From Opitutaceae bacterium (lineage in GTDB: Bacteria > Verrucomicrobiota > Verrucomicrobiia > Opitutales > Opitutaceae), in assembly GCA_027490995.1 (NCBI GenBank), contig JAIXWY010000011.1:1240001-1304000 (forward strand): 64,000 nt of DNA, given 5' to 3'. Shown in pieces: positions 245 to 48,387 of the stretch. Numbering within the stretch: position 1 is the first letter of the stretch; every line of letters starts with the position of its first letter. The translations under genes and the position numbers were made by a program. The notes under the pieces were generated by a model. It was not told where the DNA came from. It ran no database searches and saw nothing but the letters and a program-made list of their open reading frames with translations.

Positions 245-3148
245 ATGCCTTCGCGTCGTCGCCCGGTCCTGCTCCTGCTCTCCCTTGCCGCGTTGTTCGC
301 CCCGGGCGCCCGGGGCGACTCTCCCCCGCGCGCTTCCAGCGTCGGGGAGGGGACGGCCAGAGATCGTGCAAGTCCGTCAGCCACCTCGGTGGGGCGGCCA
401 CTGACCCACGACGACTACGATGGCTGGCGGTCGATCCTGAGTCCAACACTCGCGCCCGACGGGCAGACGGCCGCCTACGCCCTGATGCCTCTCGAAGGCG
501 ACGGGGAGTTGGTGATTCGGGTCGTCCCCTCGGGCGATGAATGGCGTCAGCCGATCGGAGCGCTGCCTCCCCCCCCGACTGCCTCAGCCGACCACAATCC
601 GGAACGACCTGCACCGCGGCGGGAGCCATCGGTCGTCTTCTCCCCGGAGGGTCGCTTCGTCATTGCCACCCGCTTCCCGTCCGACGCCGAACGGAAGGCC
701 GCCCGGCGCGAGCGCAAGCCCATCACGGAGGGTTTACTCATCGTCAACACCGCGAACCGCAGCGTCGAGCGCATCGACCGCGTGCGCGGGTACCAGCTGG
801 CGGGCAGAGACCAGCCGTGGCTTGCCGTGCTCGTCGCATCGTCCGATCCAGCCACGAAAGGAGCGGAGTTGCAGCTCCGTCCGCTCGACGCCGCCTCACC
901 CACGGCCACCCGTCGCTTCGCCGGTGTCACGGAGTACGCGCTGCAGCGCGACGGTCGGACGCTGGTGTTCGCGACCGCAGCCGAGGGCGACCGGCCAGCC
1001 GGGCTGTTTCACGTGGTGCCCGGTACCGATGCTCCGCCCCAGCCGATCCTCACTGGCGCGCGCGAATACCGCCGGCTCACCTGGGACCGTCAGCAGCAGC
1101 GGCTGGCGTTCTTTGTTCAGCCCTCCGACGGGCGCGACGCCACCGATCCCAGCGGCGTCTTCGTCTGGGAGACGGCCACGGCTCAGGCGCGCCCCCTGAT
1201 CAACGCTGCAGCACCGGGCGCTGCGCTCTCCACCGGGCTGGCCGCGAGCCCCGACCATGCGCCGGTCTATTCGTTCGATGGATCTCACCTACTCCTCGTG
1301 CTGCGCCCAACCACGACCGCCGAGCCCATCGCTCCACCGGCGGACGACGAGGAACGCGTCACGGCGGACATCTGGCACTGGCAGGACGAGCTCCTGCAGC
1401 CCATGCAAGCCCAGCGGGCTCCGAGGGAACGCCTCCGTGGCCTCGCCGCGCGGATCGACGTGGCGACCGGAGCCACACAGGTACTGGGGGAATTCCTCCC
1501 GGCGCAAGTCACCCTCAGCCCCGATGGTCGACGCGCCTTCGTTCGCGATGACCGCCCATATCGGGCGCGACTGGATTTCGAAGGCCCCTTTCACGACCTC
1601 GTGATGTTCGCGGGCGACAGCGGAGAGCCAATCGTCGTGGCCCGTCAGCTCAACGACTGGACAGCGAGCCAGTGGTCACCGGATGGACGCTGGATCGCGT
1701 TTCATCAGGACGGTCGTTGGAACGCCTTCGACGCGCAGGCCGGGCAGCGGATCGATCTCACCGCGGGCCTGAGTGTTTCGCTCGTCAACGAGGACAACGA
1801 CCTTCCGCGGGCGCCGCTGCCGCACGGCGCGGCCGGCTGGACGAGCGACTCGGCCTCCTTCTTGGTCTACGATCGATTTGACCTCTGGCAGCTCTTCCTC
1901 GACGGCCGCCCCGCGCGTGCCCTCACGGCCGGCGCGGGACGGGAGTCAGGGATCGCACTCCGCCTCGTGGCTCCCGCCCCGACGCGCGGAGGCCGCGAGA
2001 GCCTCGGAGTCGACGTCTCCCGCCCCCTGATCCTGCGTGGCGAGAGCGAGCAGACACGTGCGACCGGTTTCTTCCGGACCGCAATGGCGGTGGGTGACGC
2101 TCCGGTGCGCCTGCGCTGGGAGAACGCCCGGCTCGACGTCGCCGCCCGCGCTGGCGAGGCCGATGCCTTGCTCGTGACCCGCGCCCGATTTGACCTCTTT
2201 CCCGACCTGCATGCAACCGACGCGTCGTTTGCTACGCTCCGGCCGATCAGCCAGGGCGATCGGCAGAGGCACGCCTTCCAGTGGGGCCGGGCCGAGCTAC
2301 GCTCCTACCGCTCGCTGCACGGTGAGACGCTTCCCATGGCGGTGTTCCTGCCGGCGAACTTCGATCCCTCGAAAAAGTACCCGCTGATCGTGTATCTCTA
2401 CGAGCGACTTTCCCAGACGGTGAACTGGTTCATCCCGCCGACCCCGGGCACCACCATCAATCCCTCCTTCTACACCAGCAACGGGTACATGGTGGTGATG
2501 CCAGATATCGCGTACCGGATCGGGGATCCAGGAGCCAGCGCCCTCGCTTGTGTGCTGCCGGCCGTCGAAGAAGTCATCCGCGGCGGTGGCGTGGATGAGG
2601 AGGCAATTGGCATTCAGGGACATTCGTGGGGCGGGTACCAGACCGCCTTCCTCGTGACCCAGACCACGCGGTTTCAGGCGGCGGCGGCGGGTGCGACGGT
2701 GGGCAACATGACCAGCGCGTACGCCGGCATCAGCAGCGGCTCCGGCCGCTCTCGGCAATACAAGTACGAGAGCGAACAAAGCCGCATCAACCGTCCGCTC
2801 TACGAAGATCCGCTCGCCTACCTGCGGAATTCCCCGGTGTTCTTCGCGGATCGTGTGCGCACGCCGCTGCTCCTCCTGCACAACGACGGCGACGATACCG
2901 TGCCCTTCAGCCAGGGCGTTGAGTTGTTCCTCGCGCTGCGCCGCGCGGGAAGCGAGGTCTACCTCATTAACTACCACGGTGAATTCCACGGCCTGCGTCG
3001 CCGGGCGGACCAGAAGGACTATGCCCGGCGCATGAGCCAATTCTTCGACCATCACCTCAAGGGGGCCCCGCGGCCAGGATGGATGGAGCGCGGCGTACCC
3101 TTCCTTGAGCGCGAGGCCGAAAAACTCCGCTTTCCCTCGTCCCCATGA
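245..3148 (+). CDS. Secreted S9-family (prolyl oligopeptidase-like) serine peptidase
   Basis: A 967-residue protein with a signal peptide (RRR, then a Leu-rich core to about residue 24), so probably periplasmic or exported. The first two thirds contain SPDGR-type repeats typical of a beta-propeller; the last third is an alpha/beta-hydrolase domain. The nucleophile elbow GHSWGGYQ places the catalytic Ser near residue 794, the Asp lies in HNDGDDTVP near 880-884, and the His in EFHGL near 915. The fold order matches acylaminoacyl or dipeptidyl peptidases of family S9, although substrates could include esters. A TTG at 242 is an alternative start directly before the ATG. The stop overlaps the next start by four bases, so this is the first gene of a translationally coupled operon. 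Confidence 0.88.
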   Translation: MPSRRRPVLLLLSLAALFAPGARGDSPPRASSVGEGTARDRASPSATSVGRPLTHDDYDGWRSILSPTLAPDGQTAAYALMPLEGDGELVIRVVPSGDEWRQPIGALPPPPTASADHNPERPAPRREPSVVFSPEGRFVIATRFPSDAERKAARRERKPITEGLLIVNTANRSVERIDRVRGYQLAGRDQPWLAVLVASSDPATKGAELQLRPLDAASPTATRRFAGVTEYALQRDGRTLVFATAAEGDRPAGLFHVVPGTDAPPQPILTGAREYRRLTWDRQQQRLAFFVQPSDGRDATDPSGVFVWETATAQARPLINAAAPGAALSTGLAASPDHAPVYSFDGSHLLLVLRPTTTAEPIAPPADDEERVTADIWHWQDELLQPMQAQRAPRERLRGLAARIDVATGATQVLGEFLPAQVTLSPDGRRAFVRDDRPYRARLDFEGPFHDLVMFAGDSGEPIVVARQLNDWTASQWSPDGRWIAFHQDGRWNAFDAQAGQRIDLTAGLSVSLVNEDNDLPRAPLPHGAAGWTSDSASFLVYDRFDLWQLFLDGRPARALTAGAGRESGIALRLVAPAPTRGGRESLGVDVSRPLILRGESEQTRATGFFRTAMAVGDAPVRLRWENARLDVAARAGEADALLVTRARFDLFPDLHATDASFATLRPISQGDRQRHAFQWGRAELRSYRSLHGETLPMAVFLPANFDPSKKYPLIVYLYERLSQTVNWFIPPTPGTTINPSFYTSNGYMVVMPDIAYRIGDPGASALACVLPAVEEVIRGGGVDEEAIGIQGHSWGGYQTAFLVTQTTRFQAAAAGATVGNMTSAYAGISSGSGRSRQYKYESEQSRINRPLYEDPLAYLRNSPVFFADRVRTPLLLLHNDGDDTVPFSQGVELFLALRRAGSEVYLINYHGEFHGLRRRADQKDYARRMSQFFDHHLKGAPRPGWMERGVPFLEREAEKLRFPSSP

Positions 3149-4098
3149 CTTCGACTCCCGTAATCGGCATCGACCTCGGTGGCACCAAGTGTGCCGTGAG
3201 CATTCCCGTCGGGGACCACGGCGTAAAGGAAGTGGTCCGGTTCGCGACCAGTACGCCTCAGGAGACGCTCCAGCGCCTGTTCGACGAGGTGGCCGCCCTG
3301 CGGCCGGCGCCTGGCACCGCGTTCGGCGTGTCCTGTGGCGGCCCGCTCGATGCGACGCGCGGACTCATTCTTTCTCCGCCCAATCTGCCCGGCTGGGACC
3401 GCATCGCGATCTGCGAGCAGATCACGGCGCGCTTCGGCGGTCGGGCCTGGCTAATGAACGACGCCAATGCCTGCGCGCTCGCCGAGTGGCAGGACGGCGC
3501 CGGCCGCGGCACCCGCAACATGATCTTCCTTACGTTCGGTACCGGAATGGGCGGGGGCTTGATCCTCGACGGACGTCTCTACGAGGGAACCACCGGCGAT
3601 GCCGGCGAAGTGGGCCATCTTCGCTTGGCGGCCGACGGCCCGGTAGGCTTCAACAAGGCAGGCTCCTTCGAAGGTTTCTGCTCGGGCGGCGGCATCGCGC
3701 AACTCGCGCGCCGCGCGCTCGCCGGCTCAACTCGCCCCTCCAGCCTCCGCCTTCAGGCGATCGATACCGTCACCGCGAAGGACGTCGGCCTCGCCGCTGC
3801 GGCCGGTGATGCGCTCGCACTCGAGCTCTGGCGAAACGTCGGCACCCGCCTCGGCGAGGCGCTCGCGCTGTTGATCGACATCCTCAACCCGGAGCGGATC
3901 GTAATCGGCAGCGTGTTCGCCCGTTGCGAACGCTTCATCGCGCCGGCAATGAACGAGGTGCTCGAGCGCGAAGCGCTCGGCCCCAGCCTCCGGGCCTGCC
4001 GCGTCGTCCCGGCTGAACTCGGTGATACGATCGGCAGCCATGCCGCCGTCGCCATCGCTCGTTATCATCTCATGCTCGCCTCCTCTCCCCGCCGATGA
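3145..4098 (+). CDS. ROK-family sugar kinase-like protein lacking the usual zinc motif
   Basis: A 317-residue protein with the ROK/ASKHA architecture. An N-terminal phosphate loop GIDLGGTKCA (residues 8-17), the catalytic segment MNDANACALAE, and the second phosphate loop FGTGMGGGLI are all present. ROK enzymes usually phosphorylate glucose, N-acetylmannosamine or related sugars, while some members are regulators; no DNA-binding HTH precedes the kinase domain here, so an enzyme is favoured. The expected CxCGxxGCxE zinc motif after EVGH is replaced by a Cys-poor stretch (GFNKAGSFEGFCSG). ATGA overlaps join it to both neighbours, suggesting intracellular phosphorylation of a sugar released by the cluster. 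Confidence 0.87.
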   Translation: MTSTPVIGIDLGGTKCAVSIPVGDHGVKEVVRFATSTPQETLQRLFDEVAALRPAPGTAFGVSCGGPLDATRGLILSPPNLPGWDRIAICEQITARFGGRAWLMNDANACALAEWQDGAGRGTRNMIFLTFGTGMGGGLILDGRLYEGTTGDAGEVGHLRLAADGPVGFNKAGSFEGFCSGGGIAQLARRALAGSTRPSSLRLQAIDTVTAKDVGLAAAAGDALALELWRNVGTRLGEALALLIDILNPERIVIGSVFARCERFIAPAMNEVLEREALGPSLRACRVVPAELGDTIGSHAAVAIARYHLMLASSPRR

Positions 4099-6188
4099 AC
4101 CCCACCACGCGCCGTCACTTTCTCCAAACCGGTGTCGCCCTCTCGGCGCTCGCTCCCCTGTCCCGCCTCGGCGCCACCAGTCGACCCGAAGCCACCCCCT
4201 CCGCATCCGGCATGCCCGGTCCGACCCGCGGCCTTCTCTTCGATCGTTCCGATTTGCCGCGCATCCGGGAAAATCTGGAGCACCCCCGGCTCAACGAGGT
4301 CCGCGCGATGCTTCGGAACATCAATTTCGAGGCTGAAACACGCTTCCTCACCACTGAACTCCGGCTGACCAATCATGTCACCGACTTCATGCGCTGCTGG
4401 CGGCTCGTGCAGAACTCCGCCTTCGCGTACGCGGTCTGGGGCGAGGCACCCCAGCGCGAGCTCTGCCTGCTCGCGCTCCGGCGGCTGTGTGACTACAAAC
4501 GCTGGGACTACTTCCTCGAGGGAGGCTCCCTCACGATTGGGCTGCAACGCGCGCCCGAGGCTACGATCGCCACCTGCTATGCGCTCGATTGGCTCGGGGA
4601 CGCCCTCCCTACCGATCTGCGCGAGCGAGTGGAACAGCGGATCCAGAACGAAGGTGCCCCCGCCTGCTATCGAACCCTTTACGGCCTGAAGTATCCGGAT
4701 CGCGTGCGCGGCTGGACGATCGATCCCGAGGACGACATGAAGTTCCGCTTCGATCTGAGTCGCTGGCCACTGATCCTCAACTCAACCAACTTAAAGGTCA
4801 TCCCGACCTGCGGGCTGGGCCTCGCCGGCCTTTGGTTTCAGGGCCGCCATCCGCAAGCGGACCGCTGGCTGGAACTCGCCCGCCAGAGTGCACAGGCCTT
4901 TTCGATCATGTACGGCAAGGACGGCTCCTACGACGAGGGTGTCGGCTACTGGGGCTACACGACCTCGCATCTGGCGATCTTTGCGGATGCGCTGCATCGG
5001 CGGCTCGGGATCGACGACCGCGCGCTGATCAACTACCCGGGGACAGTTCGCTACGCCCTCGCGATGTCGATGCCCACGGCCGGCGCGGTCATCAAAGACC
5101 CGAACATGGACAAGGAGTACAATGCGACGCCCAAGATCAACTACACCCCCACCCAAGATGTCGTGAACTTCGGTGACGCCGGCAGCGGCATGGATGTCAC
5201 GGTCGCTGGCTGGGTCGGCCAAGTCACCGGCGATCCACTCTGCCACCACGTTTCGCACGAGGTGGGCGGGCTGAAGCAGCTTCAGGCGGCAGTCTGGTTC
5301 TGGCCTGACGCCGAGACCTCCCGGCCCGGACCCGCGTTGCACGATGTCCGGATGAGCAACGACTGGGTCGTGTCCCGCACCGGATGGAAGCCCGAGGACA
5401 CCGTCGTTGCGCTGCGCAGTGGCGGCCCGGCCAACCATGAACACGCCGACCGCAACAGCGTCATCCTCAAGGCTCACGGCGAACGTCTCTTCCACGATCC
5501 CTTCAAGGCCGGCTACTCGCCGACCTTGCCCACCTGGCTGCTCCGGCAAACCGAGGCGCACTCGGCGGTGCTGATCAATGGCCAGGGACATCAGTACCAT
5601 GATGGTCGCGAGGGGACCAATCCCTCCTTCGCCGAGGCCCGCGTGACCGCCTACGCCAAGGGCGCTGACTGGATGTGCGTCACCAGTGATGCCACGGACG
5701 CCTACGCGTTGGTCCTTCCCGAGGTGAGATTCGTCGATCGCACGGTCGTGGTCCTGAAACCCGACGTGGTGCTCCTGCTCGACCGGGTGGTGCTCGAAAA
5801 GGCGCACCCCGTGCAACTACGCTTCCAGGCTTTCAACGACGACGGTCGCGCACAAGTCACCGCAAGCGGATCGACCTTCTCGATCCAGCGTCCCCTCGCG
5901 GTCGCTCATGGCGTAGCCTATTCCGCATCGGCGGTAAAGGCCGAGACCGGCCGACTCGCATTACCCGATGCAGAGGGAGTCTTCCCGTACGCTCACGTTT
6001 CATCGGCATCCGGACTTCGGCACGAGATCCTGACCCTTGTCAGCACGGGCCCGGCCCACACCGCGGCGGCAAACCTCGCGGTCACACGCGAAACCGACGG
6101 CTGGTCGGTGGCCGGCGAGCACCGTGGTCAACGCTACGCCGCCCGCCTTCGCGTGGCGGAAGGTAAGGCTCCCCAGTTCGTCGCCTGA
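4095..6188 (+). CDS. Tat-exported heparinase II/III-family protein
   Basis: A 697-residue protein beginning with a twin-arginine signal (TTRRHFLQTG followed by an Ala/Leu-rich stretch), so it is probably exported folded through the Tat pathway; a tatC gene lies at 51407-52246. An alpha-helical N-terminal half is followed by a beta-rich region containing NHEHADRNSVIL and RLFHDP, typical of the heparinase II/III C-terminal domain. Family members are polysaccharide lyases acting on uronic-acid-containing glycans such as heparin, alginate oligomers or related polymers; the substrate here cannot be read from sequence. It starts inside the stop of the ROK gene and ends two bases before the symporter gene, implying degradation and uptake of the same glycan. 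Confidence 0.85.
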   Translation: MNPTTRRHFLQTGVALSALAPLSRLGATSRPEATPSASGMPGPTRGLLFDRSDLPRIRENLEHPRLNEVRAMLRNINFEAETRFLTTELRLTNHVTDFMRCWRLVQNSAFAYAVWGEAPQRELCLLALRRLCDYKRWDYFLEGGSLTIGLQRAPEATIATCYALDWLGDALPTDLRERVEQRIQNEGAPACYRTLYGLKYPDRVRGWTIDPEDDMKFRFDLSRWPLILNSTNLKVIPTCGLGLAGLWFQGRHPQADRWLELARQSAQAFSIMYGKDGSYDEGVGYWGYTTSHLAIFADALHRRLGIDDRALINYPGTVRYALAMSMPTAGAVIKDPNMDKEYNATPKINYTPTQDVVNFGDAGSGMDVTVAGWVGQVTGDPLCHHVSHEVGGLKQLQAAVWFWPDAETSRPGPALHDVRMSNDWVVSRTGWKPEDTVVALRSGGPANHEHADRNSVILKAHGERLFHDPFKAGYSPTLPTWLLRQTEAHSAVLINGQGHQYHDGREGTNPSFAEARVTAYAKGADWMCVTSDATDAYALVLPEVRFVDRTVVVLKPDVVLLLDRVVLEKAHPVQLRFQAFNDDGRAQVTASGSTFSIQRPLAVAHGVAYSASAVKAETGRLALPDAEGVFPYAHVSSASGLRHEILTLVSTGPAHTAAANLAVTRETDGWSVAGEHRGQRYAARLRVAEGKAPQFVA

Positions 6189-6190
6189 CC

Positions 6191-7966
6191 ATGCCCACCT
6201 TCAATACGGTCAACGCCTACGACTACGGGCTGATTCTCCTGTACTTCGTGATCGTTGTCCTGGTGGGCTTCTACGCCGCCCGGAAGAATCGGGGAACCGA
6301 CGACTACTTCCGCGCCGGCGGCCAGATTCCTTGGGTGCTGGCCGGATTGTCGAACTGGGTTTCAGGCTTTTCCGCGTTCATGTTCGTGGCCGCCGCCGGC
6401 TACACGTATCGGGTCGGAGTCGGAGCGATCCTGCTCTTCACCATGGCGGCGCCCGCGTACCTTGTCGGCTATTTCTACTTCGCCAAGATGTGGCGGCGAG
6501 CGCGCCTGGAGACGCCCCTCCAATTCCTCACGCGGAGATTCTCTCCGTCGACGACCTACTTCTACTCCGTAACCGCGATCGTTCCGCAGGTGGTCGGGAT
6601 CGGGCAAGGCCTGTACATCCTGTGTATCTTCGTTTCGACCGCGCTCGGTTTCGGCGGACGGATGTTTAACCTCGGAGGCGTTGAGTTGAGCGGACTGCAG
6701 GTCTCGATCCTCGTCGTCGGCACCGTGATGGTGCTCTACACCGTGATTGGCGGCCTGTGGGCTGCGGTGCTCTCGGACGCGGTGCAGTCCGTAATCATTG
6801 TCGTGATGACGGTGATCATTTTCCCGGTGTCGTACCTGCATCTCGGCGGCGAGGGAGGCTGGTCGGCGGGGGTGCAGCGACTCCTCGACGAGGTTCCGGA
6901 AGGCTACTTCTCGCTGCAGGGAACCTCGGCGGACCCCTGGTTCCTCCTCGGGTACGCGATCAACTGCCTCCTTGGCTACAACGTGGCCTGGCACCTCGCC
7001 CAGCGCTACTACTCGGTGCCCGACGAGCGCGGGGCGCGGAAGATGGCGCTCCTGTGTGCGGTGCTGTCCTTCGTCGGCCCGCTCCTCTGGATCCTGCCGG
7101 TGATGGCAGCGCGCGTGATCTTCCCGGACATCGGCTCACTCTGGCCCTCCCTCAAGGAGCCCGCCGAGGCCTCGTACGTCTCGCTTGCGCTGCTGCTCCT
7201 GCCGCACGGCCTGATCGGCTTCGTTGTCTCTGCAGTGCTCTCCGCCACGCTCGGTCAGGCCAACGATGCGTTCAACTGGCTGTCCGCGACCACGACGCGC
7301 GATATCTACGTGCCGCTACATCGGCGCTGGCGCGGGCACGAACCGTCGGACCGCAAACAGCTTCGGGTTGCCCAGGCCACGATGTTCATCGTTGGCGCAC
7401 TGGGCATCGCGGTGGCGCTGTACATCCCACGCTTCGGCGGTGCCTTTGAGTTCGCCCTGCAGTATTACTCGCTGATGGCAGCCTTCATGATGCCGGTGGC
7501 GCTAGGAATGATCTTCCGGCGGACACCCTGGTGGTCGGGAATCGCCTCCTGCTCGGCCGCGTTGGCGGTCGCGATCACCCTGATGGTGCTGGGCGTCTGG
7601 GAGTCCAATCCGCTGGCGCGCAACGTGCTCAGCGAAGCCGTCACCGCGACGATCGTATTTGCCGTCTCGGCGCTCTGGTATCGTCGGAATGATCCGCGCC
7701 ACGCCGAGATCGAGCGGCTCGACGCCGATCTCCGCACGCCGGTGCCGGATGCCCCGGCCGCCTCGCACGCGGGTCTCGCAGTCTACGGCGTGATCGGCAC
7801 CATGACCCTCGTCCTCGGCATCGTGCTTTCCCTGTGCACGTTTTTGCCCGGATCCGCGCTCGCGCCGGCCAGTCGCAACCTCATCGCCGGTCTGCTCTTG
7901 ATCGCCATTGGTCTCGCCCTGCGCAAGGTCGCGGCGCGCGCCCAGGTCCCGTTGCCCCGCCCATGA
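6191..7966 (+). CDS. Sodium:solute symporter (SSS family)
   Basis: A 591-residue inner-membrane protein with about 13-14 hydrophobic segments. The first helix begins near residue 11 (YGLILLYFVIVVL), and GLSNWVSGFSAFMF marks the second-helix region characteristic of SSS carriers. Family members couple Na+ to uptake of sugars, amino acids, nucleosides or carboxylates. Its position directly after the heparinase-like gene, and overlapping the next gene by four bases, points to import of the sugar or sugar acid handled by the cluster. The substrate is inferred from context only. Confidence 0.9.
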   Translation: MPTFNTVNAYDYGLILLYFVIVVLVGFYAARKNRGTDDYFRAGGQIPWVLAGLSNWVSGFSAFMFVAAAGYTYRVGVGAILLFTMAAPAYLVGYFYFAKMWRRARLETPLQFLTRRFSPSTTYFYSVTAIVPQVVGIGQGLYILCIFVSTALGFGGRMFNLGGVELSGLQVSILVVGTVMVLYTVIGGLWAAVLSDAVQSVIIVVMTVIIFPVSYLHLGGEGGWSAGVQRLLDEVPEGYFSLQGTSADPWFLLGYAINCLLGYNVAWHLAQRYYSVPDERGARKMALLCAVLSFVGPLLWILPVMAARVIFPDIGSLWPSLKEPAEASYVSLALLLLPHGLIGFVVSAVLSATLGQANDAFNWLSATTTRDIYVPLHRRWRGHEPSDRKQLRVAQATMFIVGALGIAVALYIPRFGGAFEFALQYYSLMAAFMMPVALGMIFRRTPWWSGIASCSAALAVAITLMVLGVWESNPLARNVLSEAVTATIVFAVSALWYRRNDPRHAEIERLDADLRTPVPDAPAASHAGLAVYGVIGTMTLVLGIVLSLCTFLPGSALAPASRNLIAGLLLIAIGLALRKVAARAQVPLPRP

Positions 7967-20163: not shown

Positions 20164-20328
20164 TTACTTGATTTCCTTGTGAACCGTGTGGCGCTTGAGG
20201 AAGGGGTTGTACTTCTTCTTCTCGATGCGCTCGGTCACGGTCTTCTTGTTGCGCGTGGTGAGGTAGCGCGAGACCGGCTTGCCCTCTTTGCGGGCCTCAG
20301 TGCATTCCAGGGTGACGACTTCGTGCAT
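20164..20328 (-). CDS. rpmG: 50S ribosomal protein L33 (zinc-free type)
   Basis: A 54-residue basic protein with the L33 pattern [21 protein letters not shown] and [11 protein letters not shown]. It sits in the large ribosomal subunit near the E site. Only one cysteine remains of the paired CxxC motifs found in zinc-binding L33, so this is the C-minus form that does not need zinc. The ATG at 20328 gives the normal family length; the longer upstream frame is not expected to be coding. Confidence 0.95.
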
Positions 20329-20411
20329 GATGGTAAAACGGTTGAACGGGAGAGCAAAACCGCCCCCCTCCCGGCCCGCAACCACAAAAGCACGGCGATC
20401 GGCGCGGTATC

Positions 20412-21767
20412 CTAGCCCGCCACCAACGCCCGATCCGTGAGCGAGAGCATTTCACCCCGGCGAAAGAGCGTCACCTGCCCCGAACTGGAGGACACGACGA
20501 TTGAGATGCAGTCCGTTGCCACGCTGATGGCCGCCGCGGCCGCGTGACGACTTCCCAAACCGCTGGGCAAGGTGTGCTCCACGTCAGTGGCTTGCACTAG
20601 GCTTCCCGCCGACAGCAACACGCCGTCGCCACGGATGATGAATGCCCCGTCGATCGACGAGAACTCCTTCACGGTCTCGTCCATGAACGGATTGAGGATG
20701 TTCCGATCCTCCTCCTTGTAGCCGAAGAACGGGTTCAGCACGAGGGGCTTGATCAGACGCTCTACGCGCGGGGTGTCACCGACCACGAAGAGGCATCCCA
20801 CGGGACGACCCTCCCGACCCTCGACGGAGAGCTCGGTTGCCACACCGATAACCCGTTCGAGCACCTCGGGCTTCACATCCGGAGGCAGTAGGTCCGCATG
20901 ACCAGTTAGAAGAGTCTGGAACTCCCGCTCCACATCCACAACCACGACCGTATCGAACTGGTTACTGCCGGTGATTCCGCCGATGCAGCAGATCCGATCA
21001 TTGAAGGAAATTACTCCGCGGGTGAGGGCCACCAGCACGGCGCTGCGCAACTGGGCGAGCCGCCGGTTGGAAAACGAACGCACCTGAACCGTCTCCGCGA
21101 ACTCGTTCTGGTCGTCGCCGGCATCGATCACATTACGGGTGACGAGGATTGTCTTAAGCTTGGTCTGCAGCGAACGCGCCTCGATGCCGCCCACAAACGT
21201 GTCGCCGAATACCATGAGCGCGCTGCACCCGGCCCCCTTGGTGACTCGCTCCGCCTCGCGGAGCATCAAACGATTGATCCGATTTTGCTGCGCCTGAAGC
21301 GGGCGACCCGCAATACCACCGAAACCCGCCAGGAGCCGATCGTAGAGGATGTCGAGATCGGCCGCGAGCAACAGACCGTCGATGAACTCCGGCTCCTTCA
21401 GCAGTCGCGCCAGCGAAGCCAGGACCTGAAGATAGCTGCCCGCCTTCTCTCCGGCTAGGAGCATGACGATGAAATGCACCCGTTCATCGCCCGCGACTCC
21501 GTCGTGGCGGATTCCGAGGCGACTGCGGCCAATCGCCACCACATAGGGCCGCGACATGCGCACCCGCACGTGGGGCAGCGACACCCCTCGCCCCAGGTAG
21601 GTGGTCATCGTGCTCTCCCGCTGCAGCAGGCTGCGCAGCAAGGCTTCGGGGCGGAGGTCAGGAAACTTCTCCACCGACACCGCGAGGAGCTCCTCAAGCG
21701 CTCCCTTCAGATCGGTGCTCTTGAGCTCAACCAGACGACTGCGGGCGATGATTCGATCCAGTCTCAC
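20412..21767 (-). CDS. Diadenylate cyclase with N-terminal PTS EIIA domain (EIIA / PK_C-like / DAC)
   Basis: A 451-residue three-domain protein. Residues about 1-150 look like a type-2 PTS EIIA (PtsN-like) domain with [10 protein letters not shown], whose His66 matches the phosphorylated histidine. Residues about 155-300 resemble the C-terminal domain of pyruvate kinase ([26 protein letters not shown]). Residues about 310-451 form a DisA_N diadenylate cyclase domain with DGA at 373-375 and [10 protein letters not shown] with RH at 407-408, the two signature motifs for making c-di-AMP from two ATP. The PK_C-DAC half resembles archaeal CdaZ. No membrane segment is visible, so it is cytoplasmic. 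The GTG start is preceded by a GAGG-type ribosome site. This is probably the cell's c-di-AMP synthase; PTS control is inferred. Confidence 0.85.
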
Positions 21768-21828: not shown

Positions 21829-22218
21829 TCACTTTTCCCATTCCAGAGCACCCTTCTTGACCTCATAGACGAGGCCCAGCACGAGTACGAAGAGGAAGAA
21901 ACCGATCGGCGCCAAGATCGGGATCCCGGCCGCCAGAAACTCACGGTAGACGAACGTCCACGGAATCAGAAAGACGACCTCGATATCGAACAGGATAAAG
22001 AGCATGGCGGTGACGTAGAACTTCACCGAAAAACGCGTGTGCGCGATCCCCTCCGGCTTCACGCCGCACTCGTAGGCGCTGTCCTTAATCGCGCCGCCCC
22101 GCGCCCGCTGCCCCAAGAGATGGCTGATCCCAATGATGCCAGCCGCCAGCGCGGTCGCTAGGATCGCTTGGACGAGGATGGGGAAATAGTCGGCGGACGA
22201 ATTCAGAACTGCCAGCAT
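21829..22218 (-). CDS. nuoA: NADH-quinone oxidoreductase subunit A
   Basis: A 129-residue membrane protein with three helices. The conserved loop YECGVKPEG and the segment FYVTAMLFILFDIEVVFLIPW identify subunit A (NuoA/ND3) of respiratory complex I. In other bacteria the Cys-containing loop lies close to the quinone site. Its neighbours are unrelated genes and no other nuo gene lies in the window, so nuoA is separated from the rest of the complex I genes here. A well-formed promoter ends six bases before its ATG. Confidence 0.93.
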   Translation of the reverse strand: MLAVLNSSADYFPILVQAILATALAAGIIGISHLLGQRARGGAIKDSAYECGVKPEGIAHTRFSVKFYVTAMLFILFDIEVVFLIPWTFVYREFLAAGIPILAPIGFFLFVLVLGLVYEVKKGALEWEK

Positions 22219-48312: not shown

Positions 48313-48387
48313 TGGAGCCGATGGTCGGGATTGAACCGACGACCCACGCTTTACGAAAGCGTTGCTCTACCACTGAGCTACATCGGC
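48313..48387 (-). tRNA. tRNA-Thr (anticodon CGT)
   Basis: A 75-base minus-strand tRNA with CCA encoded. The acceptor arms GCCGATG and CATCGGC pair, the D arm reads GCTCAGTGGTAGAGC, the anticodon stem ACGCT/AGCGT encloses the loop TTCGTAA (anticodon CGT, reading ACG), and the T arm contains GGTTCAATCC. No other tRNA lies nearby. Confidence 0.95.

Follow-up and report, generated by a model that had tools for sequence, protein, structure and literature searches.

A Putative DacZ-Type Diadenylate Cyclase with an EIIANtr-Like Receiver Domain in Opitutales

A 64,000-nucleotide stretch of an Opitutaceae genome (assembly GCA_027490995.1, contig JAIXWY010000011.1, positions 1,240,001 to 1,304,000 of the forward strand; the window, always meant at its full length) encodes a protein in which an EIIA domain resembling PtsN (EIIANtr) of the phosphotransferase system (PTS) is followed by a DacZ_P domain and a diadenylate cyclase (DAC) domain. 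We propose, tentatively and with doubt slightly outweighing belief, that this fusion is an active DacZ-type cyclase under the control of an EIIANtr-like receiver: phosphorylation of His66 would set the synthesis of cyclic di-AMP (c-di-AMP) and so pass the phosphoenolpyruvate (PEP)/pyruvate state of the cell on to K+ and osmolytes. The parts of this proposal differ in strength. Catalytic activity is likely, judging by the motifs, the predicted fold and the fact that DacZ of Haloferax is active; it is also likely that HPr phosphorylates His66, given that residue itself, Arg50 and the donors encoded in the genome; an effect of phosphorylation on cyclase activity is uncertain; and ion homeostasis as the output is what we infer from EIIA-transporter fusions, the role of c-di-AMP and the binding of EIIANtr to KdpD.

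Why would a receiver on a cyclase matter? c-di-AMP controls K+ and osmolytes and, to our knowledge, the signals that control diadenylate cyclases are largely an open question. Here the cyclase, usually the sole one in the order, bears a receiver with a known input (enzyme I (EI), HPr and PEP) that could be rebuilt in vitro. If phosphorylation of His66 does alter c-di-AMP synthesis, then the PTS and c-di-AMP, each of which controls K+ in other bacteria, are united in one protein, and the fusion may link the energy state of the cell to ion control.

Domain Architecture and Known Relatives

The gene and the parts of its product discussed below are as follows:

20412..21767, minus strand: EIIA-DacZ_P-DAC fusion gene, 451 codons, with GTG at 21767 and TAG ending at 20412
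21339..21725, minus strand: PTS_EIIA_2 domain (PF00359), residues 15-143
21618..21620, minus strand: Arg50, matching an Arg that is conserved in PtsN
21570..21572, minus strand: His66, presumed to accept the phosphate; it lines up with PH in PtsN
20913..21284, minus strand: DacZ_P (PF21755), a probable sensor domain, residues 162-285
20451..20828, minus strand: DAC diadenylate cyclase domain (PF02457), residues 314-439
20643..20651, minus strand: DGA motif, residues 373-375
20544..20549, minus strand: Arg407-His408 (RH motif)

An earlier note on this DNA, made from the letters, had given the coordinates and the 451-residue product correctly; the gene sits on the minus strand, and stops interrupt the plus strand in the corresponding frame. 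All three domains score above their Pfam cut-offs: PTS_EIIA_2 (PF00359; residues 15-143, E = 4e-16), DacZ_P (E = 7.8e-29; 100.3 bits against a cut-off of 27.4) and DAC (E = 4.4e-20; 71.9 bits against 27). The PtsN-like EIIA domain with its His66 in SLPH and the DAC domain with its DGA and RH motifs are thus borne out, each residue lying where the note had placed it. For the middle domain, which the note called pyruvate-kinase-C-like, PF02887 (pyruvate kinase C), named for the domain search alongside PF00359 and PF02457, has no match in the protein; the region is matched by DacZ_P, a PK_C-related domain. A fold search with the predicted structure recovered an EIIANtr fold and a DAC fold and hardly covered the middle region; Kelch-protein matches to that region were set aside as chance (among the listed rows, a stretch that stands up by itself occurs only in one, unrelated, row).

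The likeness of the middle and DAC parts to archaeal CdaZ (DacZ), also proposed in the note, holds up: DacZ_P precedes DAC, the fusion matches NF041371 (E = 1.2e-34, residues 216-441) and it is 34% identical to Haladaptatus DacZ over 195 residues. It differs from the haloarchaeal DacZ equivalog, however, scoring 119.9 bits against the NF041371 cut-off of 430, and the Haladaptatus protein, at 268 residues, is too short to include EIIA as well. From EIIANtr (PtsN) the fusion differs both in score (30.9 bits against an equivalog cut-off of 138.7; TIGR01419) and in having its EIIA joined to a cyclase. With CdaA and DisA it shares the DAC fold and motifs, but it scores 32.7 bits against 188.8 for CdaA (TIGR00159), falls below the DisA equivalog cut-off, and has EIIA and DacZ_P as its N-terminal part. 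Haloferax DacZ is an essential enzyme that forms c-di-AMP in vitro and works with manganese, and a PK_C fold is predicted for its N-terminus (PMC6741144).

Is the architecture itself new? We do not claim so: it has probably been cataloged. Braun et al. (2019), who use a class DacD after earlier lists, give under DacD the names Lacunisphaera limnophila, Puniceicoccaceae bacterium, Coraliomargarita sp., Verrucomicrobia bacterium and Opitutae bacterium (PMC6741144). Four of these five are Opitutia by name, Lacunisphaera and Coraliomargarita being Opitutia in the NCBI taxonomy, and the fifth gives the phylum only. Because the fusion is nearly always the sole DAC protein in those bacteria, its family is probably class DacD, a match made by the listed organism names. 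Corrigan and Grundling in 2013 and Galperin in 2023 reportedly classify DAC architectures. The earlier note knew of no characterized example, and no experimental study of an EIIA-DAC protein was found in the literature searched, most subscription papers being beyond reach; the family as such has probably been listed before, as DacD.

Active-Site Residues

Are the residues that phosphotransfer and cyclization would need conserved? The alignment compared here holds 65 fusions; L069, L072, L073 and L074 were omitted from 69, as their match starts only at the middle domain or is cut by a contig end. His66 is a histidine in 61 of the 65, in 24 of the 27 rows left after thinning to below 75% identity, and in all 55 loci of a separate scan of named genomes that cover the position (two of its 57 loci do not). 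By entropy it ranks about 15th lowest of 150 EIIA positions, the start codon counted, and it belongs with Arg50 (R in 64/65), Pro65 and Arg68 to the best-kept positions of a domain whose overall divergence exceeds that of DAC. Such a pattern of conservation fits an active site in use.

The cyclase motifs vary even less. Asp373 and Gly374 are found in all 65 fusions and the Ala of the DGA motif in 60, and Arg407-His408 is invariant. Where bacterial RHR motifs have their third residue, 58/65 fusions, the window protein among them, have Ala; in the archaeal DacZ L138, RH is likewise followed by a residue other than Arg.

Distribution and Origin

The phylum was sampled with 387 genomes, including that of the window, 63 of which belong to its order; all fusion counts from this sample are lower bounds, more diverged fusions being possible among weaker or unlisted matches. 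At least 65 genomes (the window's included) carry a full-length fusion: at least 59 of the 63 in the order, with all 37 of the family among the carriers, and at least six of the 324 outside it, from three families. These 65 relatives can be aligned over EIIA, middle and DAC domains in one open frame, at identities down to 31-34%. The scan of named genomes, the one search to reach beyond the phylum and one that detects close relatives only, returned 57 matching loci under titles such as Opitutaceae, Opitutae, Opitutia, Opitutales, Puniceicoccaceae, Puniceicoccales, Verrucomicrobia and similar, with Geminisphaera colitermitum TAV2 and a Pelagicoccus among them; 52 of the loci are full length and uninterrupted by stops. 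A contig titled Opitutaceae (L075) encodes a protein 100% identical to that of the window, and cultured relatives with the protein include G. colitermitum TAV2 (L130), Puniceicoccaceae bacterium K14 (L125) and strain DG1235 (L129). Because so many genomes share the full-length open frame, a one-off gene fusion or an assembly error is excluded.

In all six fusions from outside the order EIIA and DAC score above cut-off; DacZ_P does so in L066, L067, L068 and L071, reaches 22.7 bits against 27.4 in L065, and is unlisted at E 0.001 in L070. An EIIA tree of 27 non-redundant fusions and 21 other domains groups the 23 Opitutales-type fusions with weak support (78/69) and places the four distant ones apart from them; PtsN of the window's own genome also lies apart from the fusion, again with weak support at the base.

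For 56 of the 59 carriers in the order the fusion is the only DAC protein found, a second one being present in G172, G223 and G310; no DAC was found in the four remaining genomes (G102, G146, G298 and G384). A control search of a laboratory strain of E. coli gave no DAC match either. The second protein of G172 is a DacZ_P-DAC protein without EIIA (L074:2824-3711), followed by a DUF2254 membrane protein (3755-5098). In G102, G298 and G384, which belong to family f3 and are relatives of genus g27, no DAC and no PgpH-type hydrolase were found while EI and HPr are kept, an apparent loss of c-di-AMP signaling.

The PTS Relay and c-di-AMP Machinery

What would phosphorylate His66? The window's own genome, in an assembly 94.7% complete, encodes one EI, one HPr and one PtsN. 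The 619-residue EI matches the three EI parts in Pfam and nothing further, with none of the additional sensor domain that ptsP carries; HPr contains GIHARPA and GKSIMG, which we take to be the usual His and Ser sites; and PtsN, of 158 residues, contains LPHAR. Of the ptsP/ptsO-type relay that the earlier note had suggested looking for, the phosphodonors EI and HPr are therefore present and the ptsP-type sensor domain is not. Nothing that the note itself would have held against its proposal was found: the EIIA and DAC profiles match, and a source of phosphate is encoded. Across the order, EI occurs in 63/63 genomes and HPr in 62/63. The relay of the window's genome looks regulatory, because EIIA_2 domains occur only in PtsN and the fusion, and PTS_EIIC (PF02378), the only EIIC family searched for, was not found.

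On the side of the messenger, the same genome has a PgpH-type hydrolase (7TMR-HDED/HD). Within the order this enzyme occurs in 50 of the 59 DAC-bearing genomes and in one of the four others; because the nine genomes that have a DAC but lack the hydrolase fall in genera g6 (five), g15 (three) and g17 (one), the association is no more than suggestive. The window's genome also encodes a Na+/H+ exchanger that carries two TrkA_C domains (L136:55-2028); such proteins are a kind of c-di-AMP target, and this one is a candidate. No c-di-AMP riboswitch was found in six sources totaling 122,939 bases, a search that did not take in the whole genome.

EIIA Domains and Transporters Elsewhere in the Phylum

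Ten longer EIIA proteins, hand-picked from the phylum, comprise five Na_H_Exchanger-EIIA proteins, one EIIA-MgtE-CBS, one EIIA-CBS and three without a second Pfam domain. The His is kept in all seven that are fused to transporter or CBS domains (L152, L153, L154, L155, L156, L157 and L158). Two of the distant fusions have neighbors that do indicate a partner: in G247 the gene directly adjoins one for an amino-acid permease with an EIIA domain of its own (L066:958-2811), and in G159 (L071) the fusion gene (2983-4329) is convergent with a gene (4639-6624, minus strand), 309 base pairs (bp) away, for an EI in which Pfam finds the full set of three parts, and beyond this EI gene is the start of a similar permease; the G159 genome has five EI matches.

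This suggests that Verrucomicrobiota employ PTS receivers on transporters more widely. One might go further and suppose that the EI-HPr relay of the phylum largely regulates ion homeostasis through EIIA receivers on Na+/H+ exchangers, on transporters for Mg2+ and amino acids and, among Opitutales and their kin, on what is usually the only c-di-AMP synthase, where PEP-dependent phosphorylation of one His would directly set the level of the messenger that controls K+ and osmolytes; we consider this possible but rather doubtful. The earlier note had seen carbon/nitrogen status as the quantity linked to c-di-AMP. Given the EIIA-transporter fusions and the EIIANtr-KdpD link (PMC9239096), that output is a weaker candidate than ion and K+ homeostasis.

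A Possible Mechanism and Its Alternatives

How could the state of the receiver reach the cyclase? In the mechanism that we tentatively propose, an EIIANtr-like receiver at the N-terminus of a DacZ-type diadenylate cyclase would accept at His66 a phosphate handed down from PEP via EI and HPr; the phosphorylation state of EIIA would change the arrangement or oligomerization of the DacZ_P-DAC part and with it the rate of c-di-AMP synthesis, and the outcome would be a coupling of the PEP/pyruvate state to the control of K+ and osmolytes. As to direction, a weak guess is that phospho-EIIA permits and dephospho-EIIA restrains synthesis, because dephospho-EIIANtr favors K+ uptake via KdpD elsewhere and c-di-AMP restrains K+ uptake. 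It is unphosphorylated EIIANtr that binds KdpD in other bacteria (PMC9239096).

Several observations weigh against a switch at His66. The residue is replaced in four of the 65 fusions (by Tyr in L060, Ser in L062 and L063, and Cys in L064), through at least two separate losses in a quick tree with long branches, and the four genomes concerned (G366, G149, G175 and G304) all have EI and HPr, which rules out loss of these donors as the cause. In such lineages the EIIA domain must serve a role independent of His66, because it stays there without it. Tyr112, present in 59/65 fusions, stands where PtsN and IIAMtl have their second His in the alignment. The neighbors conserved in the order, nuoA and L33 (see below), give no pointer to the PTS, EI being a neighbor of the fusion at one observed locus only, that in G159. 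Finally, the modeled arrangement of the domains is not reliable, because the model is of a single chain with a predicted template modeling score (pTM) of 0.57.

Three of the four His-less fusions come from one small-genome genus (g27). Decay of EIIA is not clearly seen in the four: its identity to the window's EIIA is 27-40% (L060, L062-L064), and rows that keep the His at comparable DAC divergence give 26% (L061) and 39% (L059). The idea that Tyr112 marks a dead EIIA was rejected as weak, since Tyr is common at this position in other EIIA domains of the phylum: among 20, hand-picked among the matches listed, 15 have Tyr, four His and one Gln, and R and H are kept in all 20. PtsN of the window's own genome has a Tyr there too, by eye.

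If the receiver does not set the rate of synthesis, what else could it do? It could be a phosphorylation-sensitive docking module for a partner such as a K+ channel or an antiporter subunit, so that the state of the PTS decides where, and not how much, c-di-AMP is made. EIIANtr elsewhere acts through partner binding, as with KdpD when unphosphorylated (PMC9239096), and EIIA is fused to transporters within the phylum; but no transporter is fixed near the fusion, whose conserved neighbors are nuoA and L33, the exceptions being the adjoining EIIA-bearing permease of G247 and the permease start beyond EI in G159. On balance we consider docking unlikely.

Alternatively, the cyclase may be active and its EIIA now mainly structural or small-molecule-binding, with DacZ_P as the main sensor and His66 kept largely by descent. 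The four fusions that retain the domain without the His speak for this, as do DacZ_P-DAC proteins without a detected EIIA in the sample (L069, L072 and L074); yet His66, Arg50, Pro65 and Arg68 would then have stayed among the best-kept positions of a domain that diverges more than DAC, and we give this account only a small chance. That the cyclase is catalytically dead or forms another product, the protein being a scaffold only, is suggested by the Ala in place of the third RHR residue and is very improbable: D373, G374, R407 and H408 never vary, the archaeal DacZ L138 likewise has a residue other than Arg there and the Haloferax enzyme is active (PMC6741144), and 50 of the 59 order genomes with the fusion encode the PgpH-type hydrolase.

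Gene Neighborhood

The genes flanking the fusion in the window are:

21829..22218, minus strand: nuoA-like gene (Oxidored_q4), upstream of the fusion, same strand
20164..20385, minus strand: ribosomal protein L33 gene (rpmG), downstream of the fusion, same strand

Where the DNA extends more than 600 bp upstream, the fusion is directly preceded by nuoA on the same strand in 51/51 loci, separated from it by 11-171 bp in 50 and by 485 bp in one; the two genes are perhaps co-transcribed. Of the 52 loci whose DNA extends more than 600 bp downstream, 33 have L33 inside those 600 bp. The genes scanned near the nuoA-like gene (21829-22218) in the window include no complex I genes, and the other genes examined around the fusion are housekeeping genes that indicate no partner. 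The window also contains a tRNA gene at 48316-48387 on the minus strand (Rfam RF00005, 71.2 bits).
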